Shown in pieces: positions 4,950 through 59,478 of a stretch of DNA of 64,000 nt. The number at the start of each line of letters is the position of its first letter. The stretch's first letter is position 1. This DNA is from Synoicihabitans lomoniglobus (GTDB taxonomy: Bacteria > Verrucomicrobiota > Verrucomicrobiia > Opitutales > Opitutaceae). The stretch is from the NCBI RefSeq assembly GCF_029023725.1, contig NZ_CP119075.1, positions 4,459,501-4,523,500 of the forward strand. The letters run 5' to 3'. The notes below the pieces were generated by a model, which saw only the letters and a list, made by a program, of their open reading frames with translations, was not told where the DNA came from and made no database searches. A program made the position numbers and the translations under genes.

Positions 4950-5041
4950 GGGTCTATTCAATGGTATTCGGGGTTGTGAGTCAGAGTGAACGGAAGGCAG
5001 CAGCCTTTCCACGGGTAAATGAAATCCTTCATAGGCACCTT

Positions 5042-29848: not shown

Positions 29849-30007
29849 GTGAAGAACCGGAGCGCGGACCGTAGAAAGCGGGCCGGGTCGCGCAAGGCAA
29901 AATTTCAATTCTTACTCAATTACTCCCTCTCCGTGGTCGATAAACCAGCTCATGTTGCCGTATTTACCCATTTGCCACCCGGCCGACTTTCAGCACACTT
30001 TGTGACC

Positions 30008-40169: not shown

Positions 40170-40256
40170 TGCGCACCACCGTCGCAACCCGCGACGTCGC
40201 AGGGCTTGCCCCCCGGGGGCAGCTCGGTAGGTTGCACCGCAATCGCCCCCGCCCGT

Positions 40257-40913
40257 ATGGCTAAAACCGACCGCAAAACTACCCTTTATATCGCCGAGGA
40301 CCACGTCGCCATTCGCGATCTGCTCGCGCGTCACCTTGAGCTCACCGGCAGCTTCGATGTCGTCGGCATGGCCGCCGATGGCGAGCCCATCGTCGACGAT
40401 TGCACCCGACTCAAGCCGGACGTGCTGCTCCTCGACTTGTCCCTGCCCAAGCGCACGGGACTCGAGGTTTTGCGCGACCTGCGCACTAGCAATTTGCCCA
40501 CCAAGGTCATGGTCTTCAGCAGCCACAACGACTCCGCCATCGTGCGCGAGGTGGTGGAGGCGGGCGCGCTCGGCATGGTCGAGAAAACGGCTCCGTTTGA
40601 TGAGTTGGAAACCGGACTGATCGCCGTAGCGGCGGGTCGGGCCCACTTTGGCGCCGCCGTGATCCAAGCCCTGCAGCAGGGGTTGCAAAAACACGCCGAG
40701 GTCAAGGGCGCCTCCGCCCTCACCCAACGTGAGCGCGAGGTCCTGGGCCATGTCGCGGCGGGACGGTTTAACAAGGAGATCGCCGACCTGCTGGGCGTGA
40801 GCGTCAAGACGGTGGAAAACCACCGGCACAATCTCATGTCCAAGCTCGACGCCGGCAACGCGGCCGACCTCACCCGGATCGCTTTTAAATTGGGTCTGGT
40901 AGTGCATGATTAG
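40257..40913 (+). CDS. LuxR/NarL-family response regulator
   Basis: A 218-residue regulator started at ATG 40257 (MAKTDRKTTLYIAEDH). The receiver domain (about 8-125) has acidic residues ED, phospho-acceptor Asp in LLLDLSLPKRTG, Ser in MVFSSHND and Lys in VEKTAPF. The LuxR-type HTH (about 150-215) reads LTQREREVLGHVAAGRFNKEIADLLGVS followed by KTVENHRHNLMSKL. It is divergent from the membrane sensor kinase (87 bp between starts), with which it probably forms a pair, and convergent with the REC-kinase gene (4-bp overlap of stops). It is the only DNA-binding response regulator in the signalling block. That makes it the best candidate to bind the 18-bp dyads near the DUF11 genes, which is inference. 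Confidence 0.9.
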   Translation: MAKTDRKTTLYIAEDHVAIRDLLARHLELTGSFDVVGMAADGEPIVDDCTRLKPDVLLLDLSLPKRTGLEVLRDLRTSNLPTKVMVFSSHNDSAIVREVVEAGALGMVEKTAPFDELETGLIAVAAGRAHFGAAVIQALQQGLQKHAEVKGASALTQREREVLGHVAAGRFNKEIADLLGVSVKTVENHRHNLMSKLDAGNAADLTRIAFKLGLVVHD

Positions 40914-42034: not shown

Positions 42035-42037
42035 GGT

Positions 42038-44320: not shown

Positions 44321-44337
44321 ATCCCCAATCTACCGTT

Positions 44338-44359
44338 TTATAGGGGTTTTTTCCTATAA
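44338..44359. promoter_or_regulatory. Inverted repeat in the promoter region of the four-PAS kinase
   Basis: TTATAGG (44338-44344) and CCTATAA (44353-44359) form a perfect 7-bp inverted repeat around GGTTTTTT, 18 bp upstream of the kinase ATG. On the minus strand the arm CCTATAAAAC could also serve as a -10 region. It is too close to the start to be a terminator of the upstream gene alone. Confidence 0.45.
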
Positions 44360-44379
44360 GACCCGACCACCAATTCAAT

Positions 44380-44397
44380 CTGGGTAGTAGCACCCAG
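44380..44397 (-). promoter_or_regulatory. 18-bp dyad motif, copy 1 (upstream of the four-PAS kinase)
   Basis: CTGGGTAGTAGCACCCAG, a perfect 6-bp inverted repeat (CTGGGT/ACCCAG) around AGTAGC, lies 59 bp upstream of the kinase ATG and 12 bp beyond the stop of the DUF11 gene at 44410. Near-identical copies occur at 47264-47281 and 58097-58114. All three are noncoding and in the same orientation relative to the downstream leftward gene. A transcription-factor site is the best reading. Confidence 0.7.
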
Positions 44398-44409
44398 AAA
44401 GTGTAAAAA

Positions 44410-47205
44410 TCAGTCGTCGAGCCGGACGCTAAACGTGACCTCTCCCGTGGCTCCCGGGCGCAATTCGCCCTCGAACGTCCAGGTCAACGCCCCCGTCCCA
44501 CCCGCACCAGGGTTCGTAAGCGACACGGCGGTAAGCCCTTCCGCCAAAGCGGGGGTAGGTGCCGCCACGAGTTTCGTGAAGGTGGGCGTCATGTCCCGAA
44601 CCACCAGGTCCGAAATCGGGGCACTGCTCTGATTTTGATACCGAATCGTGTAAGTGAGGGTCTCGCCCGGCAGCGCCAGGTCTTTGTCGACCTCTTTGAA
44701 GAGCGTCAGGCCATTCGCGCCGGTATCACCCACTTCGGTGAGATCGGTCCGGCTGGCCGGGGAAAACGTCAACGCGGGCGCGTTGGCCGCCGTGAGTTCG
44801 GCGGCGAGCACAGACTGAAATTGAGCGCCCACGGGAGCGGCCACGGGCACGAAAACCTTGGCCACGAGGCCCACGCTTTCGCCCGCCGCCACGTCCAGTG
44901 GTCCCGTCACTTGCGGCTCCCCGGGATCGACCTGACCGTTGTTGTTCAAATCCTGGTAGAGAACGGTGGACCACCCGTCGATTGCCGGGGTCGCCCGGGT
45001 GGTCACCGTGAACTCCACGCGACCGGTGGTGCCGGCCTCGAAGGTGTGCGGATAAAAAGCCACCGCCCCGGCCTCCACCGTTTGGCGACCCTCGGTGGTG
45101 AGTCGGCTCAGCGGCACGTCACCAAAATCAAGACCCACGCGATCAAGTGCCGGATCGTGCGAAAACGTGATGGCATCGGTCGCCGCATCGTAGGTGCCGG
45201 CGCTGTCGCCCACGTCGCCACCGGTGGAAACGTGGCCCGTCGCATCCACCGCCCGCACCCGCAAGTCGGTCCCGGCAGGAATACCGCCGTCGACAAAAAA
45301 TGAATACGTGCCGTCGCCACCGGTTTGGGTGGTCCCGAGGACCGCGCCGGTCGCGACATTTTCCAATCGCAGCGTCACGCCGGTTTGGCCGGGCTCGGCG
45401 CCGTTGCGGCGGCCGTCGTTGGCGGTGCCGCCACCGGTGCCGGTATCGACAAAAACGATACCGCTCACGGTCACGCCCGAGGCGAGACCGAAGTTTTGGT
45501 TCGTCACATTGGCATCGAGCATGACGACCTGTTCCCGGCGCAGGGTGTTTTGTTCGATCGCCGTCCAGCCCGACGGCACGGCGGCGGGAGTGACGTCGGA
45601 CAGCGTGGAGTTGTCGTCGATGACGATGTGATACTCGCCCATCATCACATTCGGAAACGTGTAGACGCCGGTGGCCGGATCGACCGTCACCGCTTGGGTG
45701 GCCGGGCCACCGGGGGAGTCGGCCGGGATGAGTTTGGCGTAAAGGGTCAGCCCGGTGCCGGCCTCGCCGTTGTCGATAAAGCCATTGCGGTTGTCGTCCC
45801 GGTAAACCGTGCCGCCGAGTGCGTAGCCGCACATCTGATCAACGCCATAGACCGTCACATCGATTTCGCCGAGATTAACGCCGAGGCCGTCCAGCACGGG
45901 GTCGACCACGTCGGTCAGCGTCGTGCGCAGCGTCGGGCTGAGCGCGTCGCCATAGGTGGAATTCAGGTCGCTCGTAAGCGTCGGGACCAGTTGATCGAAC
46001 GCGGCTTGGGAAACCGGATCCAGCACGGCTGGTTCCTTCGTCTCAACGTTGATTTCGAGACTGTTGGTGAGTTCGTCGACGATGTTGTCGATCGCGACGG
46101 AGCCCACTCCGGCCGTCTGAGTTTCGGAGAAAGGACCGAAGTATTGGAGAATGTAGTAGCCGGCATCCTGACCGCTGGCCGTAGCCCGAGCATTGATTGA
46201 GGCCGTGACCGGCTCGCCGGAGAGAGAAAGATCGAGTTCACCAATCTCGGTGTAACCGAAGTCGGACGAGTCGATGGTGGTATTGCGGTCGAAGAAGAAG
46301 GCGTCGTCGATGGCACCGAGGTAAACGTCGGCGAGACCGGGCCGAGCGCGCACTTTGACGAAGCTGTTGTCGGCATCGATAACCTCAATCACGCCGTCGC
46401 CGCGCCCGACCACTACGTAAAGATCAATCTTGGACAGGGTGGCCTGGTCCACACTGGTGCCCGGCGGCAAGGTGCCGATCGCCGGGCCGAGCGCATCGAG
46501 CAACGTCGGCGTGAGATCTTGATTAACCAGATCGACGCTAATCTTGAGGCGCAGACCGGCACTGCGAAAAGTGGTGCCTTCGGGCCCGCAAGTGATGATG
46601 GGCGGCTCCTCGACAATGGTGGTGATGGTCACGTTGTTGAGCACATCCCCCACCCCGAGCGCCGCACCGTCAATGACCTGCGGCACCGGCACGACCGTGT
46701 TGTCGTAGCTGTATTGTTGGGACGACGCCGTGATGAGATCGAGACCGCCGATCGAGAGCATCGACGGATCCTCGGCATCGATGAAGGAGCCCAACGTGAT
46801 CGTGCCCGCCGCGTCGTCGACGGGAATGGCGGCCACGGCCGCAGCGGCTTCGGTATCACCCTGGGCGAGGAGCGTGCCGGCGATGGCGTCGAGTAATCCG
46901 GCCGGGGTGACGCTGGTGGCAAGGGCCGCCTGGGTGTCGTCCGACCCGGTAAGATTGAGCAGAAGGTTACCCACGTTAACCTCGGCATCGCTGATGCTCT
47001 GCAGCTCCGTCGGCGTGAGGTCACCGGTGGTGCCAAACAGCGCACCCGTCGCGGTGTTGAGAATCGTCGCGGTGGGACCATCGACGGTAACGATGTTCGA
47101 GCTGATGCCGACACAGGCCGATTTCGGGCAGGCCGCAGCGCTCAGTCTTCCGGCGGAACTGAACCACAGAATCGTCAACGCACTGAACCAAACCAAACTT
47201 TTCAT
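44410..47205 (-). CDS. Secreted SdrD_B/DUF11-type surface protein, paralogue A
   Basis: A 931-residue exported protein with a signal peptide (about 1-24) followed by the mature start ACPKSACVGIS. It has a unique 440-residue region, two SdrD_B-like prealbumin folds (about 475-570, GGTVYRDDNRNGFIDNGEAG; about 590-690, VSGIVFVDTGTGGG ... GAEPGQTGVTL), a Ca-dockerin-like stretch (YQDLNNNGQVDPGEP) and a C-terminal DUF11 module (FKEVDKDLALPGETLTYTIRYQN) ending in FSVRLDD. It is a close paralogue of the 47294-50068 product. There is no LPXTG, type-9 or PEP-CTERM signal. It has its own upstream dyad motif (47264-47281). Function unknown; by fold it is an envelope or extracellular structural protein. 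Confidence 0.85.
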   Translation of the reverse strand: MKSLVWFSALTILWFSSAGRLSAAACPKSACVGISSNIVTVDGPTATILNTATGALFGTTGDLTPTELQSISDAEVNVGNLLLNLTGSDDTQAALATSVTPAGLLDAIAGTLLAQGDTEAAAAVAAIPVDDAAGTITLGSFIDAEDPSMLSIGGLDLITASSQQYSYDNTVVPVPQVIDGAALGVGDVLNNVTITTIVEEPPIITCGPEGTTFRSAGLRLKISVDLVNQDLTPTLLDALGPAIGTLPPGTSVDQATLSKIDLYVVVGRGDGVIEVIDADNSFVKVRARPGLADVYLGAIDDAFFFDRNTTIDSSDFGYTEIGELDLSLSGEPVTASINARATASGQDAGYYILQYFGPFSETQTAGVGSVAIDNIVDELTNSLEINVETKEPAVLDPVSQAAFDQLVPTLTSDLNSTYGDALSPTLRTTLTDVVDPVLDGLGVNLGEIDVTVYGVDQMCGYALGGTVYRDDNRNGFIDNGEAGTGLTLYAKLIPADSPGGPATQAVTVDPATGVYTFPNVMMGEYHIVIDDNSTLSDVTPAAVPSGWTAIEQNTLRREQVVMLDANVTNQNFGLASGVTVSGIVFVDTGTGGGTANDGRRNGAEPGQTGVTLRLENVATGAVLGTTQTGGDGTYSFFVDGGIPAGTDLRVRAVDATGHVSTGGDVGDSAGTYDAATDAITFSHDPALDRVGLDFGDVPLSRLTTEGRQTVEAGAVAFYPHTFEAGTTGRVEFTVTTRATPAIDGWSTVLYQDLNNNGQVDPGEPQVTGPLDVAAGESVGLVAKVFVPVAAPVGAQFQSVLAAELTAANAPALTFSPASRTDLTEVGDTGANGLTLFKEVDKDLALPGETLTYTIRYQNQSSAPISDLVVRDMTPTFTKLVAAPTPALAEGLTAVSLTNPGAGGTGALTWTFEGELRPGATGEVTFSVRLDD

Positions 47206-47263
47206 GGCAGAAGCATATCGAGTCTGGGGTGAAACGCCTATGAGGACATATCACCGGAGCAAA

Positions 47264-47281
47264 TTGGGTAGTAGCGCCTAG
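47264..47281 (-). promoter_or_regulatory. 18-bp dyad motif, copy 2 (upstream of paralogue A)
   Basis: TTGGGTAGTAGCGCCTAG lies between the two DUF11 paralogue genes, 58 bp upstream of the ATG at 47205. It differs from copy 1 at four positions outside the GGGTAGTAGC core. The spacing to the start is almost the same as for copy 1 (59 bp). Confidence 0.65.
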
Positions 47282-47293
47282 TTTTTGTAAAAA

Positions 47294-50068
47294 TCAGTTA
47301 TCGAGAACGACGCTGAAAGAGACTTCCCCCGCCGCTCCAGGCAATAGTTCGCCGGCAAACGTCCATGTGAGCGCACCCGTTCCCCCGGCCCCAGGATTGG
47401 TGAGCGTTACTGCCGTCAAACCTTCCGCCAGCGGCGGAGGCGGCGCCGCCACGAGTTTGGTGAAGGTGGGGGTGGCATCGCGCACCACCAGTTGTGAAAT
47501 CGGGGTGCTGCCTTGGTTGGTATAGCGAATCGTGTAGGTGAGGGTTTCACCCGGCAGGGCGAGATCCTTGTCCACTTCCTTGAAGAGAATCAGCCCGTTC
47601 GCCCCCGTGTCTCCAACTTCCGTCAAATCGGTGCGCGAGGCTGGCGTAAACGTCAGTGCCGGCGCGTTGGCCGCGGTGAGTTCGGCTGCGAGGACGGAAA
47701 CGTATTGGGCGCCGATCGGTGCCGCGTCAGGCACCAGCACCTTGACCACCAGATCGACGCGCTCACCGGCCACCACGGCCAGCGGTCCGTCAATCCGGGG
47801 CTCGCCGGGTGTGAGTTGGCCGTCGGCGTTGAGATCGTGATAGAGCACGGCGGACCACCCGTCGACCGCTGGGGACGCCCGGGTGGTCACAGTGAACTCC
47901 ACGTTGCCGGCAGTGCCGGCCTCGAAGGTGTGGGAATAGAATGCAACCGAGCCCGCCTCCGCCGTTTGCCGACCTTCCGTGGTCAAACGGCTGAAGGGCA
48001 CATCGCCAAAATTGAGTCCCCCACGGCTGCTCACCCCGTCATGCGTGAAGGTGACTGCATCCGTGGCGAGGTCATAGGAACCGGCGCTGTCACCAACCTC
48101 GCCACCGGTGGAAACATAGCCGGTCGCATCGACGGACCGCACCCGGAGGGTGGTGCCGGCACTGACCGCGCCGTCGATGGAAAATTCATACGTGCCGTCA
48201 CCGGCCGTCTGAGTCGTAGCCAGCGTCGCACCGGAGTCGGCGTTTTCGAGGATGACCTTTACTCCGGTCTGACCGACCTCGGCTCCGTCGCGAACACCGT
48301 TGTTGGCCACGCCTCCCCCCGCACCGGTATCGATGAACACGCGGCCGGCGACGGTGACACCGTTGGCGAGGCCGAAGTTTTGCTCGATAACATCGGCATC
48401 GAACACGATCACGCCGGTGCGCTGGAGCGACGGCTGCTCGGTGGGCGTCCAGCCGGCGGGCGGAACCAGCGGCGTCACGTCGCTGAGCGTGTTGTTGTCG
48501 TCGATGATGATATTAAACTCCGCCATGGCCACGCCGCCGAACGTATAGACTCCGGTGGTGAGATCGACCGGCACCGCCTGCACGGCGGGACCGCCAGGAG
48601 CATCGGCCCGCACCAACTTGGCGTAGAGGGTAAGCCCCGTTCCGGCCTCTCCCGTATCCAATGTGCTGTTACTATTTATGTCGTGATAGACCGTGCCCGA
48701 GATGGAGTAGTCGCACATCAGGTCCAAACCGTAGACCGTGACATCCGCCTCGCCCAGGGTTGCCCCGGAGGCGGAGAGAATGGGATCGACCGCATCGGCC
48801 AGCGCCGGGCGCAGCACCGGGCTGAGGGCATCGGCGTAGACCCCGCTGAGCGCCGGAGTTGCGGTGCTCACAATCGTGTTGAAGAGCGTCTGCGAAACGG
48901 GATCGAGAGCGGAGGGTTCCTTGAGCGAGATCTGGATCTCCAGATTATCGATCAACGAACTCACCATGTTATCGATCGCCACCGCCCCGTCGCCAACGGT
49001 CTGCGTTTCTGCATAGGGACCGAAGTATTGGAGAATGTAATACCCAGTATCCTGTCCGCTCGAAAAGGATCGCGCGCCCACCGAGGCCACCACGGGTTGG
49101 CCATTGATGGTCATTTTCAATTCACCAATCTCGCTGAATTCAAAATCGCTGGGTTCGATCACCGACGTGCGGTCAAAGAAGACGCTGTCATCGATTGACC
49201 CGAGATAAACGTCGGCGACTCCGGGACGGGCGCGCAGTTTCGCAAAATCGTTGATGGGATCGAGAACTTCCAGCGCTCCATCCGCCCGACCGCTGACAAT
49301 GGCGAGGTCGATGGACGTGAGCGATACCCCATCGACACTCGTGCCGAGAGGCAGCGCACCCAGCAACGGACCTGCTTCGGCCAGGAGATCCTGCTCCACC
49401 AGTTCAAAGTTCATTTTCGTGCGTAGGCCGGCACCACGAAACTGCGTGCCTTCGGGTCCGCAGATGATCTGCGGCGGCTCCGAGACGGACGACTTGACCG
49501 TCACGTTGTCGAACAGTGACGGCGGTAGTCCCAAGGAGGAGGCACTCACCACAGTCGGCACAGGCGCGGTGGGGTTGTTATAGTTGTAGGTGGCATTGAC
49601 GGTCGCCAGGAAATCGCTGCCCGGAAGGATCAGCATCCCGGGATGATCGGAGGTGAGAAAATCATCCACGGCCAGAAATCCGTCGGTGGAGCCGGAGATG
49701 GAGCGAAAAGCATCGGCGCCATCCGCATCACCCGCGTCCTCCAACACCGTGGCCGCCGCGGCAAAGAACTGCGCGGGAGTCGCCAGGTTGGACTGCGAAT
49801 CCACGGGATTCTCGCCCGGGAAAAGGGTGACCAGCAAATCGCCAAAATCGATCCGGGCGGCATCGATCGCCTGATACTGGGCGGCGGTGAGATTGTAGCT
49901 TTGACCGGTCAACGCTTCGTTGGCGGCATTGGCGGCTTCGGCATCAGAGTCGGAGGCACCCGCCATGCGGGCGGAGATTCCCGCGCAGGCCGACTTGATG
50001 CAGGTGGCTCCGTGCACGGCCAAAGGAATGGCGAGAACGAGGCAGGCGATTAGTTGGCGGAGATTCAT
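47294..50068 (-). CDS. Secreted SdrD_B/DUF11-type surface protein, paralogue B
   Basis: A 924-residue exported protein starting at ATG 50068 (MNLRQLIACLVLAIPLAVHGATC), which overlaps the stop of the barrel-protein gene as ATGA. Layout equals paralogue A: mature start TCIKSACAGIS with the same C-x-KSAC-x-GIS pattern, a long unique region containing CGPEGTQFRGAGLRTKM, two SdrD_B-like folds (SGTVYHDINSNSTLDTGEAG; GRVFIDTGAGGG), then LYHDLNADGQLTPGEP and a DUF11 module ending FSVVLDN. The unique region holds conserved YYILQYFGP and VTVYG segments shared by both paralogues. Calcium-binding-like DxNxDG loops suggest stabilisation by metal. Co-translation with the outer-membrane barrel protein suggests that it is a partner or cargo of it. 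Confidence 0.85.
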   Translation of the reverse strand: MNLRQLIACLVLAIPLAVHGATCIKSACAGISARMAGASDSDAEAANAANEALTGQSYNLTAAQYQAIDAARIDFGDLLVTLFPGENPVDSQSNLATPAQFFAAAATVLEDAGDADGADAFRSISGSTDGFLAVDDFLTSDHPGMLILPGSDFLATVNATYNYNNPTAPVPTVVSASSLGLPPSLFDNVTVKSSVSEPPQIICGPEGTQFRGAGLRTKMNFELVEQDLLAEAGPLLGALPLGTSVDGVSLTSIDLAIVSGRADGALEVLDPINDFAKLRARPGVADVYLGSIDDSVFFDRTSVIEPSDFEFSEIGELKMTINGQPVVASVGARSFSSGQDTGYYILQYFGPYAETQTVGDGAVAIDNMVSSLIDNLEIQISLKEPSALDPVSQTLFNTIVSTATPALSGVYADALSPVLRPALADAVDPILSASGATLGEADVTVYGLDLMCDYSISGTVYHDINSNSTLDTGEAGTGLTLYAKLVRADAPGGPAVQAVPVDLTTGVYTFGGVAMAEFNIIIDDNNTLSDVTPLVPPAGWTPTEQPSLQRTGVIVFDADVIEQNFGLANGVTVAGRVFIDTGAGGGVANNGVRDGAEVGQTGVKVILENADSGATLATTQTAGDGTYEFSIDGAVSAGTTLRVRSVDATGYVSTGGEVGDSAGSYDLATDAVTFTHDGVSSRGGLNFGDVPFSRLTTEGRQTAEAGSVAFYSHTFEAGTAGNVEFTVTTRASPAVDGWSAVLYHDLNADGQLTPGEPRIDGPLAVVAGERVDLVVKVLVPDAAPIGAQYVSVLAAELTAANAPALTFTPASRTDLTEVGDTGANGLILFKEVDKDLALPGETLTYTIRYTNQGSTPISQLVVRDATPTFTKLVAAPPPPLAEGLTAVTLTNPGAGGTGALTWTFAGELLPGAAGEVSFSVVLDN

Positions 50069-53000
50069 CGGGCCCATCCTTTGGCTTGGTCGCGAAGTCC
50101 CTGGAGGGAGTCTTCGTCGAATTTGATTTTCATGGTGAGGTAGAAGCCGTGCGAAGCACTGCCGTCGGCGATGAAGTCCTCATCGCGGAAACCGGAAACG
50201 TTGTAGCCGACACCGAGACGCATGTTGTTGCGCACGACCAACCCGACTTCGGGGCCGATCGCCCAGCTACCCCCGACGTCGTCACCGAAGCGACCGTGCG
50301 CCGCGATGGAGGCGTCCCAGCGGGTGCCAAAGGTGCGGGTGACTTTCACAGCGGCGAGGCCGGCCATGCCCCGGTAGGACAGATCACCGTCGCGCTCGTC
50401 GTAGGCTTTGCCGGCGAGGCGGGCGGAGACTTCCCAGCGCGGGGCGGGCATCCAATTGATATCGGTCGAGAGCACGTGGACGTTGCGGCGGCGTTCGCCG
50501 TAGCTGCCGGTCGCGTCGTCGAACCGGAACTCGTATTTGCCGAGGATCTGCCATTTCGCGTCGCCGACCGGGCGGTAGGCGGCACCAGCTTGCAGGCGGC
50601 CCTGAATGCGATCGCCGGGACGGTCACCGTCGCGCTGGTTGATGACGAGCACGCTGCGACCGAGCGCGGTCCAGGACTCGTCGAGGCGACGGGCGTAACC
50701 GAGGGTGCTCAGGATCGTGTCCTGGTCACCGCTCTGGCGCCATTCGAGGCGACCGTTGGCGCGCCAGTCGGGGTTGACCGCGTAGTCGATGGCGGCCGTG
50801 GCCGACATGGTCGACGGACGGGCTTCGCCTTCAAAGACGTGGACTTTTTCAAAAGAAGTATCGAGGCGCACGCCCTCGCGCAGATCCCAACGGTTGCGCA
50901 GGCCGGAGGCGGCTTCGATCTCGCGATCGCCGAACTCATCACGGATGCGGTATTCGCTGAAGGTGCGACCGTTGCCGCCCACGCCGCGCTCGAGACCGAT
51001 GACGGTCGAAGCGTCGCGCTGCAGCTTGTCGGGATCGAACGGCAGGCTCAGCTCGGACTGGAACTCATGGCGACCGTAGAGGCGGCCACGCTTGCCCAGG
51101 TCCCAGTCGAAGCCCGTGGCGACCGTCTCGCGACCATCACCAAGATCGCGCTCGTATTCACCGTAGGCGGACGCGCCTTTGAGGAAGGGCAGCTCGCGGC
51201 CGACGGCGAGTTTCACGGAGTTGATATCGTCGGATTGAGCCGTCTCCGGGCGACCCTCGCGGGCCCCGATCTCGGTGTGGCTGTGGCGCAGGCCGGCGGT
51301 GAAGTTCCACGCCCCGCGTTGGTGACGCAGCTCGCTGCGCACGCCGTAGTATTCCAGGTCGCGAGCTTCGGCGGCCTTGTAGACACCCTCGGTGTAGAGC
51401 GTCCAGCCGGGCTTGAGTTTGGAGGTGACGCGCACGGCGCCTTCGGTGCGGCCCGGCATCAGCGTGGCGGTTTGGTTTTCAAACGTCTCCTCGGTGCGAC
51501 CCAGGTGAGCGCGGATGTCGTGCTTGCCCTGTTTGTGGCGCAGTTCGACGCGACCGGCCAACCCGGCGCCGCTTTCGTCGCTTTCGCTGCGGGCCACCTC
51601 GGCGAGGATGCTGGTGCCGTCGCGCGGCTTCCACTCCACCGTGGCGCCGGTGAGCAGGTAGTGGTTTTCTGGATTCTCATCGCGAGCAACGGTGGCACCA
51701 ACGGTGAGCGACTCGGTGAGATCAGCGCTCGCGCCACCACCGTAGGTCCAGAAGGACTCGCCGCCCTGATCCACCTCGTAGGTGACGCGCAGCGACACGG
51801 GGTTGAGATCGGCGTCGAGGCTGGGCACCGGAGCGCGCAGCAGCAGGCGGCCGCTGAAGGGTTCGAATTCGTAGTCGACGAAACGGGAAAGGGTCTGGGT
51901 GCGGATGATTTCCGAAGCGGAGTTGCGGTCGCGGGTGATGATCTCGACGCGCTCGCTTTGCAGGATGCCGTCGCGGTTGCTGAAGGTGAACGGACCCGAG
52001 GTGCCGTCGGCGGGCAGCTCCTCCACGACCTGGGCCGAGGTGCCTTCGCTGGCCCACGCGTCGAGTTTCACGCCCCCGATTTCGCCCTGAGTGCGCACGC
52101 CGTTGAGGCTGCGTTGGTAGGTGCCGAGCGAGGCGCCACCGCGCAGGTTGCGGCGATCGGTAGTGGTGAAGTCACCGAGCAACAGGTAGTTTTGACCCTG
52201 TTCGAGACGCACGTAGAGGCGACCGGTGGACTGGGCGTCGAAGCCGTGCACGGCGCCGTCACCGTAGACGGGATAGTAGGCGTCGGGCTCGATGTCGCGG
52301 AAGAGGCGATCACGATCGGCCTTGTCGGAATCGTAGGCGGCGGTGAGCAGCGTGTCGCCGCGGACCTTGCCCTTGAGGTAGAAGGCGGCGCGAGCGCCGG
52401 CGGTTAATTTTCCGTCGGAGGAGGAGGTCGTGAAGGCTTGCAGCGCCTCCTCGAACGAATCCCCCGCTCCGACGGGTTCAAGTGATGAGGTGCCGCGCAG
52501 GTCGATGCGGCCCTCGATCACGCCGGTGGCGATGAGCGGACGCAGGGCGGGCACAAAGGCGATTTCCTCTTCGGTGCGCAGGATGCCGCTGGAAGCAGCG
52601 ACGCGACCGGTGCCGGCGCGCAGGGGCGGCAGCAGTTCAAAGGTATCTTCGCCGCCGGTGATGAAAACTTGGATACCTGGATCCAGGGGATCGAGGTCAC
52701 GCACCTGCCAGCGACCGGCGGTGGTTTCGAGCGTGACGGGCATGCGAGCGGTGACCGGCACGCCGTCCTCGTCCTCGAGGCGGACGATGATCGACGCCGG
52801 GGTCAGTCCGTCGGCGGCGGCGCCATCGACGGGAGGCAGCAGCACGATGCGGCCGAGTTGGGCGGGAGCCAGCACGGTCACACCGTCGCGGCCACGCTCG
52901 TTGCCGAACATGTCCATCATGACGGCCTCGATGCGGTTCTCACCGGTGACGAGTTTCACGCCAACGTATTCCCAGGCTTCGCGGCCATTGGCAGGATCGC

Positions 53001-54687
53001 GCACGACTTGGCCGAGGCGATCAGCCCCGACGGACTCCCCGTTGATCTCGACCGAGAAGCTGGCTCCCAGGGGACCTTTGATCCAGAGGGTGGTTTGCGG
53101 CGCGGCGAGGATGGTGCCGTCGAGGGGAGCCATGATGGCGAGATCGGCCCCCGTGGCATCGGCCGTGATGGCGGCTTCCAAAGTGCGGGGGCGGGTCGAG
53201 GCGGCGGGAGCAGCTTCGCCTTCAACCGAATCGATTTCGGCGTCACGGCCGGTTTGCAGCACCTCGGCACCGCCGACCAGACCATTGGCGGGCAGAGCGC
53301 GCACGTCGCTGAGATCCTGGGAACGATCGTCGGCGGAGAGGTCGCGGCGCAGGGTGCGGGCGAGTGAGCGGGTGACGTCCTCGGCATCGCGGCGGGCCTC
53401 GATGGCGGCGGCGATGAGGTCGAAGTCGCCGCTCACAGGGAAGTCGGCGCGATGGATCTCGTAGAATTTGAGGTTCACGAAACGCGAACCGGGGCGACCA
53501 GCGAAGCGGGGGTCGTCACCGCTGGGAGCGGCGGTGGCCGGGAGCGTGATCTCGTCGAGCTTGAGCGCATGAGTGCGGGCGAGCAGGCCGTAGAAGCTGT
53601 AGCGGCCGTCGGCATCGGTGATGGCGTAGGTGCCGTCTTCGAGGAAGAGGCGAATGCCGGGCACGCCGGGTTCGATTTCACCGGGGAAACCGTCGCCGTC
53701 GAGGTCGAGGAAGACGCGACCGAGGATGGCACCGCGATCGGTGAAGACGCCGGGCTCAATCTCCACGGCCACCTCGGCGAGGTTGCTCATGATGGCGGGG
53801 CCGACGGCGTAGGCGCGGTTGATGCCGTCGCCCTGGAGCGCATTGGGACCAACGCGAACCTGGTAGGTGATCTCGACGGATTCACCGGCTTCGACCTCGC
53901 CCACGAAGAAATCAATTTCACCGTTGGGCAGGAAACGATCGGCCAGCACCACGTCGTCGAGCCGAGCGGAATCGGGGACGTAGGTGAAGCCGAGTGGCAG
54001 GCGATCGCGGACACAGACCTGGAGGAGACGCTCGGAGCTGATGTTGCGGGTGCGCAAGCGGTATTGAATGCGATCACCCACGGAAGCGCGGGCGCGGTCG
54101 GCAGTTTTTTGGACGAACAGACCGATGAGATCTTCGCCTTCGACCACCGTCACCCGGCTGACGTTTCTGAGGGTGCGACCCGAACTGCGGGAGGAGACGT
54201 TGAGTCCGATGCTGGCGACAAAATTGAGCGGGGCCGAATCGGGGACGATGCCGACGATGATGATGTTGTGCGACGCGCTGCCCGCGACTTCGAACCATTG
54301 ATCGAGCTCGATGCGTTCTTCGCCGGGATCGACCACGCCGTTGCCATTGGCGTCGTAGATGGCGTGCAGGTCTTCAAGGGCGAACTCGGAGTCGTCGAGA
54401 TTGAAGAGCGAGACCATGTAACCTTCGTCCTCATCATCGAGATGGAAGAGCGCGTGGGGGAAAGTGACGATGCTGCCGGCGGATGAGACGGTCTCGGCGT
54501 CGGTGGTGATCGTGAAGTGCAGGTCGCCGGCCACGACGGTGACGACGGTATTGGAAACGAGCACGGAATCGATCGGGCCGTCGAAGCTCGCGGTGGCCTG
54601 ATTGATGATCTCCTCACGCGGTCCGCCGTCGTTGCCACGGAGGGTGGCGACGCAAAGCAGGAGAGTTAGGATCAGGCGGATGTTCAT
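50065..54687 (-). CDS. Large DUF11/SdrD_B protein with C-terminal outer-membrane beta-barrel
   Basis: A 1540-residue exported protein (signal about 1-18). The N-terminal third has DUF11-type folds (about 190-310: FVQKTADRARASVGDRIQYRL), one SdrD_B-like module (about 325-375: GRVFLDLDGDGFPGEIEPG) and Ig-like segments to about 700. The C-terminal 800 residues alternate polar and hydrophobic residues with many Tyr/Trp/Arg/Glu, in strands such as RLYVRLEQGQNYLLLGDFT, typical of a large outer-membrane beta-barrel; the end region HGFYLTMKIKFDEDSLQG is strand-like. It probably anchors or exports the neighbouring DUF11 proteins at the outer membrane. It follows the 54823-57432 gene after a hairpin-bearing 135-bp gap. 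It overlaps paralogue B by 4 bp. The exact function is unknown. Confidence 0.8.
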   Translation of the reverse strand: MNIRLILTLLLCVATLRGNDGGPREEIINQATASFDGPIDSVLVSNTVVTVVAGDLHFTITTDAETVSSAGSIVTFPHALFHLDDEDEGYMVSLFNLDDSEFALEDLHAIYDANGNGVVDPGEERIELDQWFEVAGSASHNIIIVGIVPDSAPLNFVASIGLNVSSRSSGRTLRNVSRVTVVEGEDLIGLFVQKTADRARASVGDRIQYRLRTRNISSERLLQVCVRDRLPLGFTYVPDSARLDDVVLADRFLPNGEIDFFVGEVEAGESVEITYQVRVGPNALQGDGINRAYAVGPAIMSNLAEVAVEIEPGVFTDRGAILGRVFLDLDGDGFPGEIEPGVPGIRLFLEDGTYAITDADGRYSFYGLLARTHALKLDEITLPATAAPSGDDPRFAGRPGSRFVNLKFYEIHRADFPVSGDFDLIAAAIEARRDAEDVTRSLARTLRRDLSADDRSQDLSDVRALPANGLVGGAEVLQTGRDAEIDSVEGEAAPAASTRPRTLEAAITADATGADLAIMAPLDGTILAAPQTTLWIKGPLGASFSVEINGESVGADRLGQVVRDPANGREAWEYVGVKLVTGENRIEAVMMDMFGNERGRDGVTVLAPAQLGRIVLLPPVDGAAADGLTPASIIVRLEDEDGVPVTARMPVTLETTAGRWQVRDLDPLDPGIQVFITGGEDTFELLPPLRAGTGRVAASSGILRTEEEIAFVPALRPLIATGVIEGRIDLRGTSSLEPVGAGDSFEEALQAFTTSSSDGKLTAGARAAFYLKGKVRGDTLLTAAYDSDKADRDRLFRDIEPDAYYPVYGDGAVHGFDAQSTGRLYVRLEQGQNYLLLGDFTTTDRRNLRGGASLGTYQRSLNGVRTQGEIGGVKLDAWASEGTSAQVVEELPADGTSGPFTFSNRDGILQSERVEIITRDRNSASEIIRTQTLSRFVDYEFEPFSGRLLLRAPVPSLDADLNPVSLRVTYEVDQGGESFWTYGGGASADLTESLTVGATVARDENPENHYLLTGATVEWKPRDGTSILAEVARSESDESGAGLAGRVELRHKQGKHDIRAHLGRTEETFENQTATLMPGRTEGAVRVTSKLKPGWTLYTEGVYKAAEARDLEYYGVRSELRHQRGAWNFTAGLRHSHTEIGAREGRPETAQSDDINSVKLAVGRELPFLKGASAYGEYERDLGDGRETVATGFDWDLGKRGRLYGRHEFQSELSLPFDPDKLQRDASTVIGLERGVGGNGRTFSEYRIRDEFGDREIEAASGLRNRWDLREGVRLDTSFEKVHVFEGEARPSTMSATAAIDYAVNPDWRANGRLEWRQSGDQDTILSTLGYARRLDESWTALGRSVLVINQRDGDRPGDRIQGRLQAGAAYRPVGDAKWQILGKYEFRFDDATGSYGERRRNVHVLSTDINWMPAPRWEVSARLAGKAYDERDGDLSYRGMAGLAAVKVTRTFGTRWDASIAAHGRFGDDVGGSWAIGPEVGLVVRNNMRLGVGYNVSGFRDEDFIADGSASHGFYLTMKIKFDEDSLQGLRDQAKGWAR

Positions 54688-54735
54688 CGGAAGACGGGGG
54701 TCGAAAAGTAAAGCGGCGAAAGGGAGGAAAAGTGG

Positions 54736-54762
54736 CCGGTCCGGGGAGTTGCCCCGGACCGG
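54736..54762 (-). terminator. Strong hairpin between two DUF11 genes (attenuator or terminator)
   Basis: CCGGTCCGGGG (54736-54746) pairs perfectly with CCCCGGACCGG (54752-54762) around a 5-base loop. On the minus strand it is followed by a pyrimidine-rich stretch with a TTTT. A second dyad, GGTGAGC ... GCTCACC, lies just upstream (about 54772-54812). Because the genes on both sides look like one operon, partial termination or processing that lowers expression of the barrel gene relative to the 869-residue DUF11 gene is likely. Confidence 0.65.
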
Positions 54763-54822
54763 GAAGGGGGTGGTGAGCGGGAGGCGACCTCAGCCGCGTC
54801 CCCTGTGCTCACCGGTTGAGGG

Positions 54823-57432
54823 TTACTGGTTGATGCGGACGCCGAAGCTCACGGTGGCGGTGCCGGAGGGAGCGATGGTGCCGAGGTTGAACTCGAGGGC
54901 GCCGGCTGATCCGTCGGCGGGCGTGGAACCCACGCTGCCTTGGCTGGCGGCGGCCGGAGTGGTGGCATCATAGACCGTGAAGGTCGGGGTCGAATCGGAG
55001 ACGACGACGTTGTCGGCGTTGGTCGATCCGATGTTTTTGATCGTGATCTTGTAGAGGATCGAAGAACCGGGGACGGCGCCCGTGGTGATCTGATTGATGC
55101 TGTAGGCGGTGTCGGCGGTGCCGTTGTTGTCGGCATCGAGGGCTTGCTCTTTCAGGATCGTGAGATCGCTGGAGATCACCGTGGAGACGTCGGTCGCGCT
55201 GACGGCGGCGGGGACGGTCTCGGTGCGGGTGCCATTGGCGGTCGTGGCGGACAAGGTCGTCGTGTCAGCCGAGCCAGCGGGCGCTCCCTCAGGGGAGAAG
55301 ACCTTGACCAGGAGTTCGACGCTCTCGCCCGGCTCGAGACCGGCACCGCTGTTGCTCACGAAGCTGAGGTCGGTGACGACGGGCTCTCCCGGATCGATCA
55401 CGCCGTTGCCGTTGACATCGTGGTAGATGATGGAGGTCCAGCCGTTGAGGCTGTCCGCGCTGGCGAGGCTGACGGTCGAGGCGATGTTGTCACCTTCGAG
55501 CACGTTGCCGTTGTTGGTGAGGGTGTGGCGGTAGACCACGGAACCACCAGCGTAGATCTGTTGCACGTTGTTCGGAGTCAGCGTGAGGCTGCGCTCGGCC
55601 GCGACGGACACGGCGTCGTGCTTGATGTCACCCGAGCCGGAGTTCGGCGAGAGGACACGGAAGTAGATCGACTCGGTGACGGGCTCGGAGCCGGCCGGCA
55701 CGATGACATCGGCGTAGACCAGGAGGTCGGCACCGGCGTTGATGACGGGCGTGCGGGCGATGACCGCTTCATTCACGTCGCGGAACACGACGGTCCAACC
55801 AGCCGGGAGGGCGATCGAGGAGTGATCGGCCACGGTGCTGGCGGTGAGGTCGAACGTATCCGCGCGACCACCGGTGTTGTTGACGTAGAGGGAGAAGCGG
55901 GCGGTTTCGCCGGCGTTGACCGTGAGGGTCGTGACGGGATCGGCCTCGGCGCCAGCGCCAGCGCCCGGAGCGGACGGACCAGCGGAGTCGTTGGTGAGGT
56001 CGACCGTGTTGAGCACGATGGCCGTGAGGGTGTCGGCCGCGGTGGCGGCGACGCCGGAATCGAGGACCGAACGAGCGGTCTTGTTCGCGGTGTAAGGTCC
56101 GCCGGAAGCTTCGACCGGGAGGGTCGCGAGCAGGATCACGGTGTAGGACGCGTTGGCCGCGAGAGGACCGGTGTCAGGGATGCCGTCGCCGTTGCTGTCG
56201 AGCAGCGCGGTGGCGCCGTCGGCCTGCGCAAGGCGGAAGGCCGTGCCAGCGGGGAAGTCGTTGCTGTCGACGGTGACGTTGAAGGTGTCTTCGCCGAGAC
56301 CGTTGTTGGTGATCACGTTGGTGAACGCGACCGTGCTGCCCTGAGGGGCGGAGGCGACCGTCTCACCGACGATGCTGACCGCAGCGCTTTGGCTGACGGT
56401 AAATCCGACGGTGTTGGAGGTGCGGGGACCGACGGTGGCAACGCCGTCGCTGTAGGTGTAGGACACCTGGTTGTTGATGTCACCGGGAGCGGCATTGGCA
56501 TCGATCGAGACCTGGAAGGTCACGGTGCCGGTCTGGCCGGGCGCGACGGAATCGATGACGGCTTTGACCTGGCGGGAGATCGGATCGTTGTAGCTGTAGT
56601 TGATGCCGGCCGGGTCACCCGCGTTGGCATCGGTGAGGGCCGAGGCGGAACCGCTCCAGCGGGCGCTGCCATCGACGTAGACCAAACCGGTCGGCAAGTC
56701 GTCGATCAAGGTGACGGCCGTGGCGGCGGTGTTGCCCGTGTTGCTGAAGGTCAGCGTATAGGTATAAGGACCGCTGCCCGGCGCACCGGAAGAGGAGCTC
56801 ATGGACTTGGTGACATTGATCACTCCGTTTTCGCTCACGATCGCGGTGTCGTTGTTGGCCGCGGTGGCGGAACCATCAAAGCCACTGACAGCCGAAACGG
56901 AAACCGCGGCGGTGTCATCGGAAGCCACCGAAGTCGGGACGGTGCCGGAGACGACAAACGAGAACGACGCCCCGGAAGGCAGATCGCCGGTCGAGGTGAT
57001 CGGCGTGCTGCTGTCGGCGCGACCGTCGCCATTGGCGTCGGCGTAGATGGCGAGACCGCTGAGGTCGAAGTTGTCACCGGCCCCTTGCGTGAAGCTCAAC
57101 GCGTAGGCGTCGGTGCCGTTGCCGGTATTGGTGAGGGTGTGCGGGAAGGAGACCTGACCGCCCGGGGCCACACTCTTGGTATTGTCGGAGGTAAGCGTGA
57201 GACTCGCCACCTGTTGCACGATGGTGACGGCGACGTTGGACGTGGCCGTGCGTTCCGTATTGGAAGCGTCCGTATACGTGGCGGAAGCTTGATTACCGAT
57301 GCTGCTACCAGCGGCAGGCGCAGCGGCACGAAGCACGCTGATACCTGTCACACCGGCCAGCATCAAGGCGGCGACAGTCACACGAAAACGTGTGGACCCC
57401 CGCGCCGATTTCTTAGCGAATGAATTAATCAT
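54823..57432 (-). CDS. Secreted protein of tandem DUF11-type repeats
   Basis: An 869-residue exported protein (signal about 1-36: RFRVTVAALMLAGVTGISVLRA). The whole mature part is a chain of DUF11/conserved-repeat beta-sandwiches with recurring phrases such as SFPHTLTNTGNGTDAY, GPYTYTLTFSNTGNTAATAV, AFTNVITNNGLGEDTF, RFSLYVNNTGGRADTF and YRHTLTNNGNVLEGD. DxNGDG loops also recur (ADANGDGRAD, DSNGDGIPD, DVNGNGVIDPGEP). It is Thr/Ala/Ser-rich and poor in Cys, consistent with an extracellular fibre or layer protein. The C-terminus FGVRINQ resembles the ends of the two paralogues. It follows the small DUF11 gene by 68 bp and is separated from the barrel gene by a strong hairpin, suggesting that it is made in excess of the barrel. 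Function unknown. Confidence 0.83.
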   Translation of the reverse strand: MINSFAKKSARGSTRFRVTVAALMLAGVTGISVLRAAAPAAGSSIGNQASATYTDASNTERTATSNVAVTIVQQVASLTLTSDNTKSVAPGGQVSFPHTLTNTGNGTDAYALSFTQGAGDNFDLSGLAIYADANGDGRADSSTPITSTGDLPSGASFSFVVSGTVPTSVASDDTAAVSVSAVSGFDGSATAANNDTAIVSENGVINVTKSMSSSSGAPGSGPYTYTLTFSNTGNTAATAVTLIDDLPTGLVYVDGSARWSGSASALTDANAGDPAGINYSYNDPISRQVKAVIDSVAPGQTGTVTFQVSIDANAAPGDINNQVSYTYSDGVATVGPRTSNTVGFTVSQSAAVSIVGETVASAPQGSTVAFTNVITNNGLGEDTFNVTVDSNDFPAGTAFRLAQADGATALLDSNGDGIPDTGPLAANASYTVILLATLPVEASGGPYTANKTARSVLDSGVAATAADTLTAIVLNTVDLTNDSAGPSAPGAGAGAEADPVTTLTVNAGETARFSLYVNNTGGRADTFDLTASTVADHSSIALPAGWTVVFRDVNEAVIARTPVINAGADLLVYADVIVPAGSEPVTESIYFRVLSPNSGSGDIKHDAVSVAAERSLTLTPNNVQQIYAGGSVVYRHTLTNNGNVLEGDNIASTVSLASADSLNGWTSIIYHDVNGNGVIDPGEPVVTDLSFVSNSGAGLEPGESVELLVKVFSPEGAPAGSADTTTLSATTANGTRTETVPAAVSATDVSTVISSDLTILKEQALDADNNGTADTAYSINQITTGAVPGSSILYKITIKNIGSTNADNVVVSDSTPTFTVYDATTPAAASQGSVGSTPADGSAGALEFNLGTIAPSGTATVSFGVRINQ

Positions 57433-57500
57433 CGGGATGTTGGATTTGTGGTTTTGGTTTAAAGCGCGGGAGCGCTCTGAAAGAGAAGGGAGGTCAAGGC

Positions 57501-58013
57501 TCAGCGGGATTTATTGAGCGAAGCGCGGGCGACGACCGTGGCACTCGAACCGGCGTCGAGCTGGGCGACATGCCAGCGCAGGGCCCGCACGACGCGGGAG
57601 TTGTCGGCCTTGAGGGCGGCCACCGCCTCGGCCATGGGCACAAAGGTTTTGCCATCGAGGCTGGCTTCCGCCGGAGCCGGTGAGGCGGCGGTGAGGTCGC
57701 AACGCATGCCCTCGGGAATGGGGAGCACCGGGGCGAGATTGGAGATGTGACCGTCACCGGTGTTGCGGTAGACGGCGGTGTATTGAATCACATCGCCGGG
57801 TTGAGCGGGGCTCTGGGTGTCGAACACCTCGGTGCCATCGACGGTGGAAATGACCTTCTCGGCCACGAGGCCGATGCGAAGGTCGCCGGCGGCGACGGCG
57901 CTGGCGGGCAACAAAGCCACCGTGAGCAGAACGAGCAGAGCGGAAAGGCGGGAGAGAGAAAGCGGCGCCGCAACGCGGGAGCCACTGAGATGGGAAAGGA
58001 AGGCGGAGTTCAT
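57501..58013 (-). CDS. Small exported DUF11-like protein
   Basis: A 170-residue protein started at ATG 58013 (MNSAFLSHLSGSR), with a signal peptide whose hydrophobic core is LSALLVLLTVALLPASAVAA. One DUF11-like sandwich follows: LVAEKVISTVDGTEVFDTQ, GDVIQYTAVYRNTGDGHISNLAPVLPIPEGM. The C-terminal part ALRWHVAQLDAGSSATVVARASLNKS is typical of the last strands. It is the first gene of the five-gene leftward cluster; the 18-bp dyad lies 83 bp upstream and a related half-site (58083-58090) follows it. By size it could be a periplasmic adaptor or minor subunit, but no partner is proven. A start at 58058 is possible but adds only non-signal-like residues. Confidence 0.8.
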   Translation of the reverse strand: MNSAFLSHLSGSRVAAPLSLSRLSALLVLLTVALLPASAVAAGDLRIGLVAEKVISTVDGTEVFDTQSPAQPGDVIQYTAVYRNTGDGHISNLAPVLPIPEGMRCDLTAASPAPAEASLDGKTFVPMAEAVAALKADNSRVVRALRWHVAQLDAGSSATVVARASLNKSR

Positions 58014-58096
58014 GCCGCAAATCCTACCGAAATCGGGATTTACAACCCATCGGCTCAATTGGCCAATTGCCCGTGAAAGCCCCTACCCAACGCGAA

Positions 58097-58114
58097 CTAG
58101 GTGCTACTACCCAG
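58097..58114 (-). promoter_or_regulatory. 18-bp dyad motif, copy 3 (upstream of the first DUF11 gene)
   Basis: On the minus strand this reads CTGGGTAGTAGCACCTAG, one mismatch to copy 1, 83 bp upstream of ATG 58013. A related TTGGGTAGGGGC half-site follows at about 58079-58090 on the same strand. A perfect 14-bp palindrome, GCGCAACGTTGCGC, lies further upstream at 58149-58162. Confidence 0.7.
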
Positions 58115-58256
58115 ACGCGGATTTAAGAACCTGGGGGGCCAACGGTAAGCGCAACGTTGCGCCCCACTTACGGGTCACGCGTGTCTCCCTGGCGCGTTCA
58201 TCCCACACTCACACCGGCCTCCGTCCGTCCCACCCCGATCCCGCGGATCGAACAAG

Positions 58257-59357: not shown

Positions 59358-59478
59358 AAGGGACTTACTGGGCTACGATGGTGAAAAGTAGTCAACTCGA
59401 CGCGCGCAAGACGTTCTTACCGCTTGGCGAAATTTGCGGCGTGATTTTCCGGTCCACCACCTCCAAAAACTCTCATCG

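Follow-up and report, generated by a model that had tools for sequence, protein, structure and literature searches.

Conserved promoter element before sensor kinase and DUF11 surface-protein genes of Synoicihabitans lomoniglobus and related Opitutaceae: predicted operator of a LuxR/NarL-type response regulator

The VraR two-component system responds to envelope stress, and PEP-CTERM/exosortase regulons control many secreted surface proteins, a likeness to the locus described here, for which we propose a specific operator sequence, a regulator, and a list of targets comprising the very large DUF11 surface-type proteins of this family. Literature searches on Opitutaceae two-component systems, Verrucomicrobia LuxR regulons, and Opitutus DUF11 returned nothing evidently on such a regulon. 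The locus lies in a 64,000-nucleotide stretch of the S. lomoniglobus genome (hereafter the window), and its genes are:

40257..40913, plus strand: LuxR/NarL-type response regulator (Response_reg plus GerE), proposed binder
42038..44320, minus strand: PAS sensor histidine kinase (PAS, HisKA, HATPase_c), proposed target and likely partner kinase
44410..47205, minus strand: DUF11 surface-type gene B, proposed target (SdrD_B and a DUF11-type repeat over cut-off, DUF11 just below the Pfam cut-off)
47294..50077, minus strand: DUF11 surface-type gene A, tandem paralogue of gene B, with no operator of its own found
50065..54687, minus strand: 1540-aa DUF11 gene, probably belonging to the operon behind operator 3, with a homologue in G113
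54823..57432, minus strand: 869-aa DUF11 gene, a likely member of that operon, with a 61% identical homologue behind a predicted promoter in G113
57501..58013, minus strand: 170-aa gene that opens the DUF11 operon, proposed target of operator 3, with promoter-bearing homologues in G011 and G113

The regulator had been recognized as LuxR-type in the first-pass annotation, and domain analysis bears this out: it joins a receiver (PF00072, E 2.8e-21) to a helix-turn-helix domain (PF00196, E 3.7e-18), as NarL/FixJ response regulators do. Its best sequence match among solved structures is VraR (5hev, E 4.2e-23), a likeness at the family level only, and the partner kinases and target genes of VraR differ from those of the window system. 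NarL of E. coli likewise has receiver and GerE domains, and the TACCC half-sites of its test site TACCCCTAAAGGGGTA (PMC4549865) stand in the same convergent order as those reported below. However, the NarL 7-2-7 operator consists of inverted heptamers two bases apart, whereas the arms found here, ACTACCCA and TGGGTAGT, are separated by 7–10 bp (half-sites 3–6 bp farther apart than those of NarL), and the regulator scores 105.2 bits against the NCBIfam NarL equivalog, below its cut-off of 250. No nitrate-respiration gene was present among the window proteins scanned, which were a part of the total. On the strand opposite the regulator, a 1415-aa frame (36660–40907) overlaps its gene, and the matches of the first 207 residues of this frame lie opposite the regulator.

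Three copies of an 18-bp dyad had been noted upstream of leftward genes:

44380–44397, plus strand: dyad copy 1, CTGGGTAGTAGCACCCAG, in which the left arm is joined by an extra half-site pointing outward
47264–47281, plus strand: dyad copy 2, TTGGGTAGTAGCGCCTAG, located by pattern scan of the window
58097–58114, minus strand: dyad copy 3, CTGGGTAGTAGCACCTAG, located by the same scan

These are the sole exact copies in the 5.93-Mb genome, where about 0.0016 exact 18-bp matches would be expected from base composition; each is intergenic by our reading of the genes, and the gaps to the start codons at 44320, 47205, and 58013 are 59, 58, and 83 bp. The judgment that they are very improbable by chance also held, as a scan of the window at up to three mismatches gave just these three, whereas 100 shuffles averaged 0.09 matches and never yielded three. 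Their orientation, described at first as uniform, is not: copies 1 and 2 are on the plus strand and copy 3 is on the minus strand. Since all three target genes run leftward, copies 1 and 2 read ACTACCCA toward the gene and copy 3 reads TGGGTAGT.

The dyad is not in itself the conserved unit, as no exact match occurs in the other 251 of the 252 family genomes, which hold three one-mismatch matches; a wider contig scan (from which records of this genome may have been excluded) gave nine stretches, from other phyla by their titles. Within the genome, GGGTAGTAGCNCC at one mismatch has 11 further matches, against 130 for the reversed pattern; eight of the 11 lie inside open frames of more than 500 codons, and the remaining ones (L006, L013, and L008) in frames of 316, 260, and 222 codons. 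Such apparent scatter, mostly in coding sequence, counts against the dyad as a site used throughout the genome, and on the genome and family scans we rejected the idea that GGGTAGTAGC marks sites across the genome or the family.

Copies 1 and 2 are related by descent: both sit 12 bp past the stop codons of the tandem DUF11 paralogues (61% amino-acid identity), at an offset of exactly 2884 bp. As parts of a 2884-bp tandem duplication they might be functionless leftovers, or members of a dispersed small repeat, a reading to which we give very little credence. The match between the two copies cannot be put down to the duplication, which is too old: fourfold sites of the paralogues are 42% identical (351 sites) while 23 of 30 post-stop bases have been kept; moreover, the element to which the copies belong recurs at the same distance before other genes in other genera, which already contradicts this reading.

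The unit that is conserved is a promoter, in which an inverted repeat, ACTACCCA-N7..10-TGGGTAGT, is combined with a block near −35 and a −10-like TANNNT. It is found in this genome and in genomes from three further genera of the family, with the end of the left arm 59–62 bp upstream of the start codon in eight promoters of these four genomes, by start codons that we chose (the genes of G164, the 5472-kb gene, and the gene starting at 58013 have alternative upstream starts). It stands before a kinase (or mscL-kinase) unit, one DUF11 gene, the small gene that opens the DUF11 operon, the gene for a small protein of unknown family, and, elsewhere in this genome, another response-regulator gene. 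Before the transcription unit of the kinase it is present in the window, in G113 (where it precedes mscL and the kinase gene comes next), and in G164, and the homologues of the first DUF11-operon gene carry it in G011 and G113. This conservation 5′ of homologous genes favors the operator reading, and the sites are very probably cis-regulatory, as had been supposed. The outward half-site of dyad 1 was not seen in the promoters of the relatives. The corresponding features of the window are:

44366..44388, minus strand: operator 1, ACTACCCA-N7-TTGGTGGT, before the PAS kinase gene, with two mismatches to ACTACCCA-N-TGGGTAGT and the left arm ending 60 bp before the GTG at 44320
47250..47272, minus strand: operator 2, ACTACCCA-N7-CCGGTGAT, with a weak right arm, four mismatches, and a left arm 59 bp upstream of the 47205 ATG
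58082..58113, minus strand: operator 3, TGGGTAGT-AGCACCTA-N8-TGGGTAGG, upstream of the 170-aa gene that opens the DUF11 operon, holding dyad copy 3 minus its end bases, with four mismatches
44327..44332, minus strand: putative −10 box TAGATT of the kinase promoter
47212..47217, minus strand: putative −10 box TATGCT of the DUF11 gene promoter
58021..58026, minus strand: putative −10 box TAGGAT of the DUF11 operon promoter
40224..40238, plus strand: look-alike, probable −10 region (TAGGTT) of the regulator gene

Within the three operator-bearing promoters, the −10 boxes were picked by eye in the alignment, and both these and the transcription starts are putative. The left arm of operator 3 is 84 bp from the ATG at 58013, about 24 bp farther out than the others. 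The look-alike CGGTAGGTTGCACCG at 40224–40238 does exist, but it fits a −10 box better than an operator: its CGGTAGGTT looks like the −10 boxes of the remaining promoters, and neither of the models R1 and R2 lists a match there.

Placement of the element was also evident in a model-free scan, in which ACTACC[CT]A occurred nine times in 402,242 strand-bases of ten loci, five of them 59–62 bp before a start codon; the chance of such placement is 2.9% per site, and P = 8e-4 for three of seven when the two founding sites are left out. Model R1, built from five promoters, was run on the 252 family genomes and gave two held-out matches below E 1e-3. One (G113:C37:6609, E 2.5e-7) precedes a homologue of the 170-aa gene and then the homologue of the 869-aa DUF11 gene, and the other (G164:C343:1121, E 6.7e-5) lies 60 bp upstream of the ATG that starts a 226-aa gene. 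In this genome R1 also gave a weaker match (E 0.018, at 5472 kb), 60 bp upstream of the ATG of a second response-regulator gene. Operator 2 scored E 3.5e-13, but as a training sequence; operator 3, which was not in the training set, scored E 0.0026 across the loci and 0.064 across the genome, and was weaker under R2, where it was split into E 0.213 and 0.996. A search of 14 loci (261,751 bases) for the inverted repeat at up to three mismatches gave eight places, seven exactly at these promoters and the eighth near the 5472-kb regulator; four mismatches, as at operators 2 and 3, were reached by 67 of 19,496 random pieces. A large regulon is not borne out, as within this genome the models score all three window sites, of which one is weak, and a single promoter beyond them.

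The gene of the regulator itself had no match to the element. Model matches were also lacking in G159, G171, and G266, which have close relatives of the regulator and whose stretches, as far as read, are also without kinase and DUF11 homologues, and ACTACC[CT]A was not found in the stretches of G012, G098, and G065 that carry homologues of the DUF11 C-terminal half. Model matches in G040 and G418 were set aside as lying inside long open frames, and five AAACTACCYAG matches in G171, G011, and G266 as having no start codon at 59–62 bp. One weaker model match was seen in G231.

Close relatives of the regulator, at 48–61% identity, are encoded in G113, G164, G159, G171, G266, and G011. With the boundary set at the drop from 197 to 175 bits, close relatives occur in seven of the 252 genomes, and these include all four that bear the promoter, a co-occurrence that overstates the evidence because the relatives were chosen for carrying the locus. 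The presence of a regulator orthologue in four of four promoter genomes, together with the conservation of the element, supports its assignment as the operator of this protein, and the prediction that the regulator at 40257–40913 binds it is well supported on these comparative grounds. Another protein could bind the element, since this genome (G000) has 27 GerE matches. Among these the second NarL-like regulator, at 5472 kb, has the box before its own gene; yet at E ≤ 1e-35 it was found, in a search of 57 relatives that covered G011 of the other box-bearing genomes, only in this genome and two congeners, G011 has the box and gave no match to it, and the regulator at 40257 has a close relative within the locus in all four box-bearing genomes. 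We therefore regard a different binder, whether this one or another of the 27, as unlikely. A G002 relative of the 5472-kb regulator had no inverted repeat at up to three mismatches in its locus, and a resemblance between the 226-aa G164 protein and the product of a 190-aa gene near 5472 kb was set aside (22% identity, E 1e-4, a single comparison).

The near-fixed spacing through to the −10-like box, with a conserved block at the −35 position, would also suit a dedicated promoter type in which an alternative sigma factor reads all three blocks and no response regulator takes part. This is quite improbable in our view, as the upstream arms form an inverted repeat with 7–10 bp between them, as for a dimeric binder, they lie far upstream for a sigma factor, and the −10 fits an ordinary TANNNT. 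No sigma-70 consensus promoter or intrinsic terminator was listed at the window sites, and both of these readings were rejected. The dyads might instead act as RNA structure in the 5′ leader or at the 3′ end of messages, given the position of copies 1 and 2 just past stop codons and the perfect 6-bp hairpin that copy 1 could fold (the others need G-U pairs on the GGGTAGTAGC-reading strand). However, the consensus fold of the eight promoters has four pairs, −0.85 kcal/mol, and a covariation term of 0.2, short of a conserved covarying fold; there is no Rfam match in 40000–59500, and the element is upstream of the putative −10. On the weak consensus fold and the lack of an Rfam match, the RNA hairpin was rejected as highly implausible.

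Taken as DNA, the motif is probably the upstream part of a two-component-controlled promoter, bound by the regulator at 40257–40913 and serving the kinase and DUF11 genes. The PAS kinase (42038–44320), whose homologues adjoin the regulator in G113 and G164 and which is also near it in the window, would most likely phosphorylate the regulator. The phosphorylated protein would then bind the inverted TACCC-type half-sites just 5′ of the −35 region and, acting as an activator rather than a repressor, may switch on weak promoters without a TTGACA-like −35, namely those of the kinase's own gene and of one DUF11 gene, while the DUF11 operon would be activated from its more distant site. The 18-bp dyad of this species would arise from a further, outward-pointing half-site next to the left arm.

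The comparison further suggests that a mechanosensitive channel and a histidine kinase are linked. A membrane-tension circuit, in which an MscL-linked kinase would signal through the regulator to the large DUF11 surface proteins and to the kinase itself, is a tentative idea that we rate as rather doubtful; if it were true, stretch of the envelope would control the outer coat of the cell. MscL and the kinase are fused in G164 and separate in G113, where mscL stands directly before the kinase gene, and in the kinase of the window species the channel part is absent and the PAS domains remain.

Our sequence scan bore out three 18-bp dyad copies in intergenic DNA upstream of leftward starts, at the distances which the first-pass annotation had given, as well as its LuxR-type regulator:

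44380-44397, plus strand: copy 1, 59 bp before the start (44320) of the PAS kinase gene (42038-44320)
47264-47281, plus strand: copy 2, 58 bp before the start (47205) of DUF11 gene B (44410-47205)
58097-58114, minus strand: copy 3, 83 bp before the start (58013) of a 170-aa gene
40257-40913, plus strand: LuxR-type regulator with receiver and GerE domains

The 5,926,369-base genome (G000) contains no exact copy of the dyad beyond these three; base composition predicts about 0.0016. The copies had also been described as sharing one orientation; since the target genes all run leftward while copies 1 and 2 lie on the plus strand and copy 3 on the minus strand, there is no common orientation towards the genes. 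Nor is the dyad a family-wide site, being private to G000: in 252 family genomes, YTRGGTAGTAGCRCCYAR with at most one mismatch occurred at the three window sites and at one place in each of three other genomes, each of these carrying one mismatch. When YTGGGTAGTAGCRCCYAG was scanned against the genome_contigs collection, nine stretches came up, from other phyla by title.

Duplication was considered as the origin of copies 1 and 2, which are spaced 2884 bp apart, each 12 bp past the stop codon of a different member of a tandem DUF11 pair. The two paralogues share 61% amino-acid identity and are old, with 42% identity at 351 fourfold sites, yet 23 of 30 bases are identical directly after the stop codon (the three 30-base bins that follow keep 16, 9 and 6). 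Something has therefore kept this stretch, and duplication was ruled out as the explanation.

Conservation before homologous genes was found for a promoter marked by the box ACTACC[CT]A; the promoter precedes the kinase units of the relatives G113 and G164 and homologues of the 170-aa gene in G011 and G113. The box occurs nine times in 402,242 strand-bases (ten loci, both strands, no model), and at five of the nine a start codon follows at 59-62 bp (with the two founding sites excluded, this coincidence has P = 0.0008 for 3 of 7); the other four are copy 3 on its plus strand, one each in the extracted loci L031 and L077, and one near 5472 kb of G000. Genome-wide, AAACTACCYAG occurs once in G113 and once in G164, each time at the promoter site, and at five places altogether in G011, G171 and G266, none with a start codon at that distance. 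ACTACC[CT]A was absent from the stretches of G012, G098 and G065 that hold homologues of the DUF11 C-terminal half. The promoter alignment falls into three blocks: first the box, then one around CGCGTCGATAGG at the position of a -35, and last TANNNT (mostly CGGTANNNT), 6-8 bp upstream of the start. The box forms one arm, the left, of the inverted repeat ACTACCCA-N7..10-TGGGTAGT.

Promoter sites: distance from ACTACC[CT]A to the start codon (five sites) and mismatches to the inverted repeat. For the G164 genes, the 5472-kb gene and window 58013, alternative start codons exist upstream of the ones chosen.
Window 1, PAS kinase: 60 bp; 2 mismatches
Window 2, DUF11 gene B: 59 bp; 4 mismatches
Window 3, 58013: 4 mismatches
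G113, mscL of the mscL-kinase unit: 59 bp; 3 mismatches
G113, 170-aa-gene homologue: 3 mismatches
G011, 170-aa-gene homologue: 59 bp; 1 mismatch
G164, MscL-kinase gene: 62 bp; 2 mismatches
G164, 226-aa gene: 2 mismatches
G000, 5472 kb: 3 mismatches

Among 19,496 random 130-bp window pieces, the best had four mismatches (67 pieces), never fewer. At three or fewer, the repeat occurs at eight places in 261,751 bases (14 loci): seven are the promoters listed with at most three, and the eighth, L119:5825, lies near the 5472-kb regulator. The dyad is this left arm plus one extra outward-pointing half-site, present at all three window sites; at copy 3 the array is shifted outward by about 24 bp relative to both the -10 and the start. 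A perfect 14-bp palindrome, CAATTGGCCAATTG, is found at 58056-58069, between window site 3 and its putative -10.

A sequence-only model of five promoters (R1), run on the 252 family genomes at E up to 1, matched in 33. Below 1e-3 it returned the training promoters and two new sites, G113:C37:6609 (2.5e-7) and G164:C343:1121 (6.7e-5). The former ends at the ATG of a 39% homologue of the window's 170-aa gene, the gene that carries copy 3, and next in line comes a homologue (61% identical) of the 869-aa DUF11 gene; contigs C37 and C29 may be neighbours in the G113 genome, so the match does not count as one from an unlinked locus. The latter precedes the 226-aa gene, in the gene row of the kinase. 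For copy 3, outside the training set, E was 0.0026 when the loci were searched and 0.064 genome-wide. A further match, at 5472 kb of G000 (0.018), precedes a NarL-like response-regulator gene, with 60 bp between it and the ATG. With R2 (eight promoters, all three predicted ones included; 21 genomes), E was at most 1.3e-9 for the training promoters and at least 0.033 for everything else; copy 3 was split into two pieces (0.213 and 0.996), and G159, G171 and G266 gave no match. A sample of 387 genomes from across the phylum gave matches at E <= 0.05 in 16; the best besides G000, G011 and G113, in G040 (3.2e-4) and G418 (0.001), were rejected as lying inside long open frames.

Domain searches assigned the regulator to the NarL/FixJ definition, below the NarL equivalog cut-off. 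It matches at E <= 1e-38 in 194 of 252 family genomes, and close relatives occur in six genomes besides G000: G113 (61%), G164 (56%), G159 (55%), G171 (54%), G266 (49%, one internal stop) and G011 (48%). This boundary was read from a score drop, from at least 197 bits to at most 175 bits (up to 47% identity), and completeness is 85% for G164 and G159 and 78% for G266. In G113 the regulator has as neighbours a kinase homologue, a DUF11 gene and a 1540-aa-protein homologue; it adjoins the kinase in G164, and in G011 neighbours homologues of the 170-aa gene and the DUF11 C-terminus; the G159, G171 and G266 stretches have no kinase, DUF11, 170-aa or 1540-aa homologue at E <= 1e-6. All four promoter-bearing genomes are among these seven, at a hypergeometric 2e-7 that is too favourable because relatives were picked through the regulator locus; the fair part of the evidence is the held-out matches.

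If the putative -10 is right, the repeat would lie at about -45 to -68 (worked out by hand). From this position, and because these promoters have no consensus -35, we infer that a regulator dimer would bind the repeat, touch polymerase and activate transcription, the predicted system working like a NarL-type two-component regulon. The NarL test site in PMC4549865 is TACCCCTAAAGGGGTA; the half-site TACCC is common to both, whereas the spacing here is wider and the putative operator is not of the NarL 7-2-7 form. In the window, the predicted targets comprise the kinase, DUF11 gene B and, as an operon starting at 58013, the 170-aa, 869-aa and 1540-aa genes, perhaps with DUF11 A, whose start (50077) falls inside the end of the 1540-aa gene and which has no box. 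Positive feedback on the kinase unit is likely, since the box precedes it in all three genomes with this kinase beside the regulator. The look-alike CGGTAGGTT at 40224, previously described as a weaker match to the dyad, resembles a -10 of the regulator gene, and no box lies there or before that gene's start. Library searches on Opitutaceae two-component systems, Verrucomicrobia LuxR regulons and Opitutus DUF11 proteins turned up nothing evidently on such a regulon.

L119 (G000:C1:5468000-5478000) encodes, at 4332-5021 and 5139-5711, a second NarL-like regulator, which has a box, and on the opposite strand a 190-aa gene; ACTACCCA-N9-TGAGTAAC occurs 0.8 kb past the end of the regulator gene and 113 bp upstream of the 190-aa gene's start. 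In G164 (L076:2581-4938) the kinase homologue forms an in-frame fusion with MscL and MASE1, and in G113 (L031:8314-10832) a complete 151-aa mscL, preceded by a box, is immediately followed by a same-strand GAF-PAS kinase; library searches on MscL with kinases turned up nothing evidently on such a fusion. Two small proteins with no Pfam family over cut-off precede the G164 kinase (L076:1199-2488); in the corresponding stretch of L031 (G113), similar-looking ones (by eye, e.g. FDCDD, EPQN) separate mscL from the DUF11 gene. In the window, paralogous receiver-plus-kinase proteins (40910-42034 and 58257-59357; 55% identical), each with a receiver domain at the beginning and a kinase core at the end, frame the DUF11 block. 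At 29849-33531, an H-NOX (haem NO-binding) gene adjoins a hybrid kinase that has an HNOBA domain and, at its end, an Hpt match below threshold.
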